DNA of 64,000 nucleotides, taken from Dictyoglomus turgidum DSM 6724. Its GTDB lineage: Bacteria > Dictyoglomota > Dictyoglomia > Dictyoglomales > Dictyoglomaceae. Made by a program: the position numbers and the translations under genes. Numbering within the stretch: the stretch's first letter is position 1; each line of letters begins with the position of its first letter. Positions 58,987-60,465 of this stretch are shown in pieces. Location: the NCBI RefSeq assembly GCF_000021645.1, contig NC_011661.1, forward strand, positions 838,723 to 902,722, given 5' to 3'. Below the pieces are notes generated by a model. It was not told where the DNA came from and did not search any database. It worked only from the letters and a program-made list of their open reading frames with translations.

Positions 58987-59074
58987 GCCGGAGTGGCGGA
59001 ATGGCAGACGCACTGGACTTAAAATCCAGTGGGGAGCAATCCCCGTGCCGGTTCGAGTCCGGCCTCCGGCACCA
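58987..59074 (+). tRNA. tRNA-Leu (anticodon TAA)
   Basis: GCCGGAG pairs with CTCCGGC; anticodon stem CTGGA/TCCAG with loop CTTAAAA (anticodon TAA); a long variable arm (GGGGAGCAATCCCC) as in all tRNA-Leu; T-arm GCCGG-TTCGAGT-CCGGC; encoded CCA at 59072-59074. It reads TTA, a frequent codon in this A+T-rich genome. Confidence 0.97.
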
Positions 59075-59117: not shown

Positions 59118-59453
59118 ATGCCAGACAAAGATTACGAAGAAGATATAATTGTTTTAGAAGGGGAGGATGGAAATACTTACGAGTATGTGGTAAGGGATTT
59201 TGTGGAAGTGGACGATAAAACTTATGTTCTTCTCACACCTAAGGATTCCGAGGATATGGAAGAAGTGTATATATTTCGCTGCAGGCTTGCAGAGAAAGAT
59301 GGCGAATTATATATAGAGGCTCTTGAAGAAATAGAAGATGATGACGAATATGAAAGAGTTATTGAAGCACTTGAGGAAGAGGAAGAGTGGGAAGACGAGG
59401 ATTGGGAAGAGGACGAATTGGAAGAGGAAGAAGATTGGGAAGAAGATCAATAA
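59118..59453 (+). CDS. DUF1292-domain protein with an extremely acidic tail
   Basis: The 111-residue protein has a DUF1292 beta domain (about 8-75: IIVLEGEDGNTYEYVVRDF, DDKTYVLLTPK and EEVYIFRC). Its tail (about 78-111) is almost only Glu and Asp with a few Trp (for example EEEWEDEDWEEDELEEEED). Many bacterial DUF1292 proteins are small and of unknown function. The acidic tail is encoded by GAA/GAG/GAC/GAT runs whose +1 frame encodes the basic N-terminus of MltG. The next gene therefore overlaps this one deeply. Confidence 0.82.
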   Translation: MPDKDYEEDIIVLEGEDGNTYEYVVRDFVEVDDKTYVLLTPKDSEDMEEVYIFRCRLAEKDGELYIEALEEIEDDDEYERVIEALEEEEEWEDEDWEEDELEEEEDWEEDQ

Positions 59454-60465
59454 TTTTTCTTTATATTTCCTACTAATTTTCTCTCTCTTAGTTTTTATAG
59501 GCTTTTTAGTATATTTATATCTATCTTCGCCTAAAAGTAAAATAGAGAGGGAGATAGAAGTATATATTCCGGAAGGTTCTTCTGCATATAAAGTTGCAGA
59601 CATTCTTTTGGATAATAGTTTGATAAAGTCTAAAGAAGTATTTATAGCAACTCTTAAATTAATGGGGAAAGATAAAGGGCTTAAGAGTGGATATTACATA
59701 TTATCTCCCTCATTTTCTATGTTTGATATAATTGATATACTTACCCAGGGGAAGGGGTTAAGAGTAAAAATAACAATTCCTGAAGGTAGCAGTCTAAAAG
59801 ATATGGCTCATTTATTTTCAGAAAAGTTAGCTCTTTCTAAAGAAAAGTTTATAACTTTATGCAAAGATGAAAATTTTATTGACAGTGTAATGAAGGATTA
59901 TAAAAATTATTTTAGCTCATATAAATCTTTAAAAACCTTAGAGGGATATTTGTATCCTTCAACTTACTATTTCAACAAAGGAATAAAAGAAGAAGACATA
60001 ATAAAATTCCTTATAAAAGAGTTTTTTAATCAGATAAATGTTCATATACCTGAATACAAAGAGAGGTTGAAGAGTTTGAATTTATCTTTCAATGATTGGA
60101 TTATTCTTGCATCAATCGTAGAGAAGGAGGCTAAAGTTGATCAGGAGAGACCTCTTATTGCAGGTGTATTTTTAAATCGTTTAAAGAAAGGATATAAACT
60201 TCAGTCTTGCGCAACAGTAGAATACGTTTATGATTTTAAAAAGTCGGTGCTTTTATATAAAGATTTAGAGATTGATTCTCCTTATAATACCTACATATAT
60301 TATGGTCTTCCACCATCTCCTATTTGTTCTCCATCTTTAAATTCTTTGAAGGCAGTGCTCTATCCTCAAGGGGATTATCTTTTCTTTGTGGCAAAAGGAG
60401 ATGGGACTCATATCTTTACCAAAACTTATGAAGAACATTTAAAAGCTCAGGAATTTAAAAAATGA
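59338..60465 (+). CDS. mltG: endolytic murein transglycosylase, MltG/YceG family
   Basis: MltG cuts nascent peptidoglycan strands and may set glycan length. The protein has a strongly basic cytoplasmic N-terminus (about 10-37), one membrane helix (about 41-62, LYFLLIFSLLVFIGFLVYLYL), a LysM-like region with YIPEGSSAYKVADIL and TIPEGSSLKDMAHLF, and the catalytic domain with the active Glu in ASIVEKEAKVDQERPLIAGVFLNRL (E262 or E264), ending SPICSPSLNSLKAVLYPQ...YLFFVAKGDGTHIF. The start is uncertain: ATG 59338, 59341 or 59350 or TTG 59362 or 59371. All lie inside the DUF1292 gene, and no ATG, GTG or TTG is available between there and the membrane helix. Confidence 0.85.
   Translation: MMTNMKELLKHLRKRKSGKTRIGKRTNWKRKKIGKKINNFSLYFLLIFSLLVFIGFLVYLYLSSPKSKIEREIEVYIPEGSSAYKVADILLDNSLIKSKEVFIATLKLMGKDKGLKSGYYILSPSFSMFDIIDILTQGKGLRVKITIPEGSSLKDMAHLFSEKLALSKEKFITLCKDENFIDSVMKDYKNYFSSYKSLKTLEGYLYPSTYYFNKGIKEEDIIKFLIKEFFNQINVHIPEYKERLKSLNLSFNDWIILASIVEKEAKVDQERPLIAGVFLNRLKKGYKLQSCATVEYVYDFKKSVLLYKDLEIDSPYNTYIYYGLPPSPICSPSLNSLKAVLYPQGDYLFFVAKGDGTHIFTKTYEEHLKAQEFKK

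Follow-up and report, generated by a model that had tools for sequence, protein, structure and literature searches.

We present evidence that in Dictyoglomus turgidum the gene for the endolytic transglycosylase MltG probably starts inside the preceding DUF1292 gene, forming a genuine long same-strand overlap in the +1 phase that is conserved across the Dictyoglomaceae. In bacteria, a long overlap on the same strand is usually written off as an error in start-site assignment. Because the synonymous sites of one gene decide where stops and starts arise in the other, this overlap is testable from sequence alone, and the outcome is positive. As a known kind of system, it is a probable, unusually long and family-wide dual-coding overlap.

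The window, that is the whole stretch of DNA analysed, spans 64,000 nucleotides of a genome that consists of one contig of 1,855,560 bp. The relevant features are the following:

58987-59074, + strand: tRNA-Leu(TAA), found with ARAGORN; also upstream of the gene pair in relatives
59118-59453, + strand: DUF1292 gene, 111 aa, with an acidic C-terminal tail (PF06949, E 2.9e-11, residues 16-87)
59338-59373, + strand: all canonical in-frame mltG starts (ATG 59338, 59341 and 59350; TTG 59362 and 59371)
59350-59352, + strand: ATG, best candidate for the mltG start; all six species have ATG or TTG at the equivalent DUF1292 codon
59350-60465, + strand: mltG, 371 aa if the start is at 59350 (PF02618, E 7.9e-88)
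59350-59453, + strand: putative dual-coding overlap, 104 nt, based on the frame relation and start in six genomes and on the absence of stop-forming codons
59434-59436, + strand: ATT, rival non-standard start in frame, present in 6/6 species at a D(W/F/L)EE motif
59452-59526, + strand: predicted MltG membrane helix, residues 35-59 counted from a start at 59350 (AlphaFold2 model)

The identity of both genes is clear, each frame of this phase 1 same-strand pair matching a recognised family (PF06949 and PF02618). The mltG product has the N-terminal membrane helix and YceG domain of the MltG / YceG family, and matches NCBIfam TIGR00247 (MltG) above the cut-off with an E value of 1.5e-79 and PDB 4iiw with an E value of 2.7e-51. 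Its AlphaFold2 model has a mean pLDDT of 74.9, with residues 2-5 and 7-33 below 50 and hence disordered, so that the predicted protein opens with about 33 basic, disordered residues ahead of the helix at residues 35-59. At its other end, mltG shares a common 4-nt overlap (ATGA, 60462-60465) with the next gene downstream, which encodes a HAD-family phosphatase.

The mltG frame is open from 59335 to 60465. Across the overlap, frame 0 encodes the acidic DUF1292 tail and frame +1 the basic MltG N-terminus; the original prediction of an acidic tail overprinted by a Lys/Arg-rich frame had described the frames, coordinates and codons correctly. The tail itself (59388-59450) is built of repeated acidic units containing Trp or Leu, WEDEDWEE and DELEEEEDWEE, whereas DUF1292 proteins elsewhere have plain short acidic ends without such units. 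Re-reading also bears out that the mltG frame holds no ATG, GTG or TTG between TTG 59371 and the membrane helix (from 59374 on), and that counting from this TTG gives a minimum overlap of 83 nt. The further claim, that mltG starts inside the overlap, is most likely right in view of six-genome conservation and codon choice, but the innermost start from which it was argued is not conserved: TTG 59371 is TCG in the nearest relative (G002) and is rejected as the mltG start. For this reason ATG 59350, with its 104-nt overlap, fits conservation better. We favour, with reasonable confidence, a start at 59350 or elsewhere within 59338-59362, the exact codon being putative.

The seven Dictyoglomaceae genomes compared include six with the DUF1292-mltG pair; in the seventh (G003, 72% complete) neither gene was found. 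In all six, which represent two genera, tRNA-Leu, DUF1292 and mltG keep the same order and the two genes the same +1 relation, and the orthologs retain the overlap. Measured from the conserved ATG or TTG, the overlap spans 104, 74, 107, 77, 77 and 77 nt, which answers the suggestion to compare its length in relatives, and tail length differs between species by whole codons. The conserved start coincides with a DUF1292 motif, E(Y/F)E, that reads as ATG in the mltG frame in the first genus (TAT G) and as TTG in the second (TTT G). Taken alone, the conserved position is weak evidence for a start, because the motif largely forces it: Tyr or Phe followed by Glu gives ATG or TTG.

Stronger evidence comes from codon choice. 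Our null model samples synonymous codons with the usage of the genome, conditioned on the next base, and gives a probability that the mltG frame is open of 0.073 here and of 0.139, 0.082, 0.024, 0.009 and 0.124 in the relatives. In 20-kb stretches sampled from this genome as background, the +1 frame is open over the last 33 codons in 8 of 369 genes (2.2%), and in none of the five genes with acid-rich C-termini. The open frame does not come free, since a stop can form wherever a Leu, Val or Ile codon is followed by G or A. Such stop-forming codons account for 0/23 of the Leu, Val and Ile codons in the overlap and for 26/64 in the preceding gene body (Fisher 9.8e-5; six genes). Likewise, all three of the shared alignment columns (3/3) are clean of stop-forming codons in the six species, as against 6 of 72 background columns drawn from the DUF1292, mltG and HAD genes, which by our own arithmetic gives p of about 1e-3. 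Synonymous codons are nearly randomised between the six species (retention r=0.03-0.31), so that the species are nearly independent. When the observed retentions are used in a simulation, the probability is 5e-5 for the three columns, or 1e-6 once the Leu codons of the tail are added. The empirical 1e-3 is safer, because there are more clean background columns in the data than in the simulation and because the TTG (Leu) codons of the tail could derive from TGG. Acidic context does not explain the stop avoidance, as TTA and CTA are used freely in acid-rich contexts elsewhere.

Codon choice also bears on starts. Asp before Glu in the tail is written GAC in 6/6 cases, as against about 12-18% GAC genome-wide, so that ATG in the mltG frame is avoided in a region rich in ribosome-binding-like sequence. 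The signal is less strong here than for stops, because GAC is already enriched in the region immediately preceding the overlap (in the DUF1292 body, 12/37 before G). A high third-position GC content behind the choice of GAC and TTG was judged unlikely, the Glu codons of the tail looking ordinary by eye. The DUF1292 frame is constrained in turn: Lys is AAG in 55/60 cases in the overlap and in 64/227 in the rest of mltG. Constraint at the codon level is thus seen in both frames of the pair, in a data set that is small: six genomes and three fully shared informative columns. Computation directly yields the frame relation, its conservation, the stop avoidance and the avoidance of ATG-making codons, and the mltG frame appears to be translated through the DUF1292 tail.

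The purine-rich tail and the pyrimidine-rich codons of the membrane helix (59380-59510) can form a long hairpin, with stability in most species no greater than that of shuffled sequence; pairing between tail and helix codons was rejected as an RNA structure since it does no better than shuffles (z -2.2 to +0.5).

The mirrored charges of the two products carry no such information. A GAN codon before G reads ANG in the +1 frame and never gives a stop, and GAR becomes ARG, that is Lys or Arg; a run of Glu and Asp written GAR/GAY thus reads as Lys, Arg, Thr and Met. When the frame is open, the null model expects a +1-frame charge of 15.3+-0.5 in this genome, and 15 is observed; for the relatives, expected and observed values are 11.3/11, 17.5/17, 12.0/12, 10.2/10 and 9.8/9. 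Because synonymous sampling reproduces the observed charge, opposite charges are rejected as evidence of dual selection or adaptation: the acidic/basic mirror is a by-product of the genetic code. The original prediction had seen the opposite charges as suiting each product and had proposed comparing them in relatives; all six genomes match the code expectation, and basic stretches before the MltG membrane helix are ordinary, other MltGs having them without any overlap. That the two tails bind each other is speculation, for which we found no basis.

We propose that DUF1292 is translated to its own stop at 59453, while MltG would be initiated separately about 100 nt upstream of this stop, in the ATG/TTG cluster (best at ATG 59350) that sits at the end of the DUF1292 domain. 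The first 27-40 or so residues of MltG would then form a basic, disordered stretch in the cytoplasm that ends just ahead of the single membrane helix. The GAA and GAG codons of the tail, unable to make a +1 stop, would be read as Lys or Arg and either be tolerated by MltG or be used as a positive-inside anchor. Translational coupling or low-level expression may accompany this arrangement, and the basic segment may have a function of its own. A bolder extension, which we put forward only tentatively, is that the overlap serves to control expression: the potentially harmful wall-cutting enzyme MltG might be kept at a low level by a start inside DUF1292 that lacks a Shine-Dalgarno sequence. Selection would then, just as tentatively, strip in-frame ATG from the ribosome-binding-like tail and thereby keep strong internal starts from arising, and about 75-107 nt would conceivably be dual-coding family-wide, beyond the limit of about 60 bp for real same-strand overlaps.

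The main rival, which we think unlikely, is that MltG starts at the conserved ATT 59434 in the manner of infC. Its N-terminus would then be short and basic (M-G-K-K-I-N-N), the overlap would shrink to about 17-26 nt, and the openness of the frame upstream would be a coincidence of acidic codons. The ATT lies 14-23 nt before the DUF1292 stop in 6/6 species, short overlaps are the rule, and short MltG n-regions such as MRKKF, often seen in other phyla, count against the long form. A good Shine-Dalgarno is absent from the conserved ATG/TTG in five of the six species, while a Shine-Dalgarno-like purine stretch of -3.0 to -10.2 kcal/mol precedes the ATT. This context is however matched by other codons of the purine-rich tail (p=0.35), and Shine-Dalgarno support for the ATT is rejected as lying within the tail background. 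An ATT also arises wherever GAT precedes the T-starting codon of a D(W/L/F)EE repeat, and its efficiency is cited as about 0.3% of that of ATG (PMC10666635). The ATT, itself conserved, differs from the infC-like class of ATT-initiated genes in its indistinct Shine-Dalgarno and in the canonical in-frame starts upstream. A start at the ATT also leaves the stop avoidance upstream of it unexplained, and we favour the region of 59350 on these accounts.

Very unlikely, in our judgement, is a non-coding open frame that acidic codons produced by chance, mltG itself starting downstream in some other way. GAN codons indeed give no +1 stop and the charge equals the code expectation, but stops could also form at the Val, Leu and Ile codons of the stretch, which happens in none of the six species, and there is no canonical start downstream before the helix. 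Least probable of all is that a programmed +1 frameshift in the tail yields a DUF1292-MltG fusion. Such a fusion would predict the stop avoidance, and the mltG frame, in +1, does stay open through the tail, but neither a long A-run nor any known slippery or prfB-like motif was seen, and in-frame canonical starts are present in every species.

Separate initiation of mltG within DUF1292, our preferred reading, illustrates a rule of the code: an acidic, GAR-rich gene end automatically has an open, Lys/Arg-rich +1 frame, and overlaps can therefore form easily where an acidic gene end lies over the basic start of a membrane protein. Such pairs deserve a check before annotation trims their overlaps.

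A search of the literature on overlapping genes in Dictyoglomus matched only work on heliorhodopsins, which is not relevant. In a survey of 338 genomes, no same-strand overlap of more than 60 bp was accepted as real, and the longest accepted one was that of holD/rimI, at 32-56 bp (PMC2478687); this published limit counts against a long overlap here. That long overlaps are enriched in phase 1 is already known and has been explained by composition (PMC2542354). Like our pair, holD and rimI of Enterobacteria are co-directional neighbours whose +1-phase overlap is conserved within a family (PMC2478687); unlike them, the present pair overlaps by 74-107 nt and has one acidic low-complexity frame that forces the other to be basic. 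The same genes occur in the same order in Negativicutes, Bacilli and Halanaerobium, but with a gap of at least 15 nt in nearly all. Only one locus, from Erysipelotrichaceae (L090, 5591-5609), overlaps: by 17 nt and in the same +1 frame, with YEEEN* over MKKRTK, apparently an independent use of the same code relation. There TAT GAA GAA GAG AAC TAA also reads ATG AAG AAG AGA ACT AAG. As for the protein, in MltG of Enterococcus faecalis, as in the MltG predicted here, a disordered cytoplasmic segment at the N-terminus precedes one membrane helix; in E. faecalis it is extended and is phosphorylated with functional effect (PMC12369325), whereas the segment predicted here is short, at about 27-40 aa, is very basic and has its coding sequence inside another gene.
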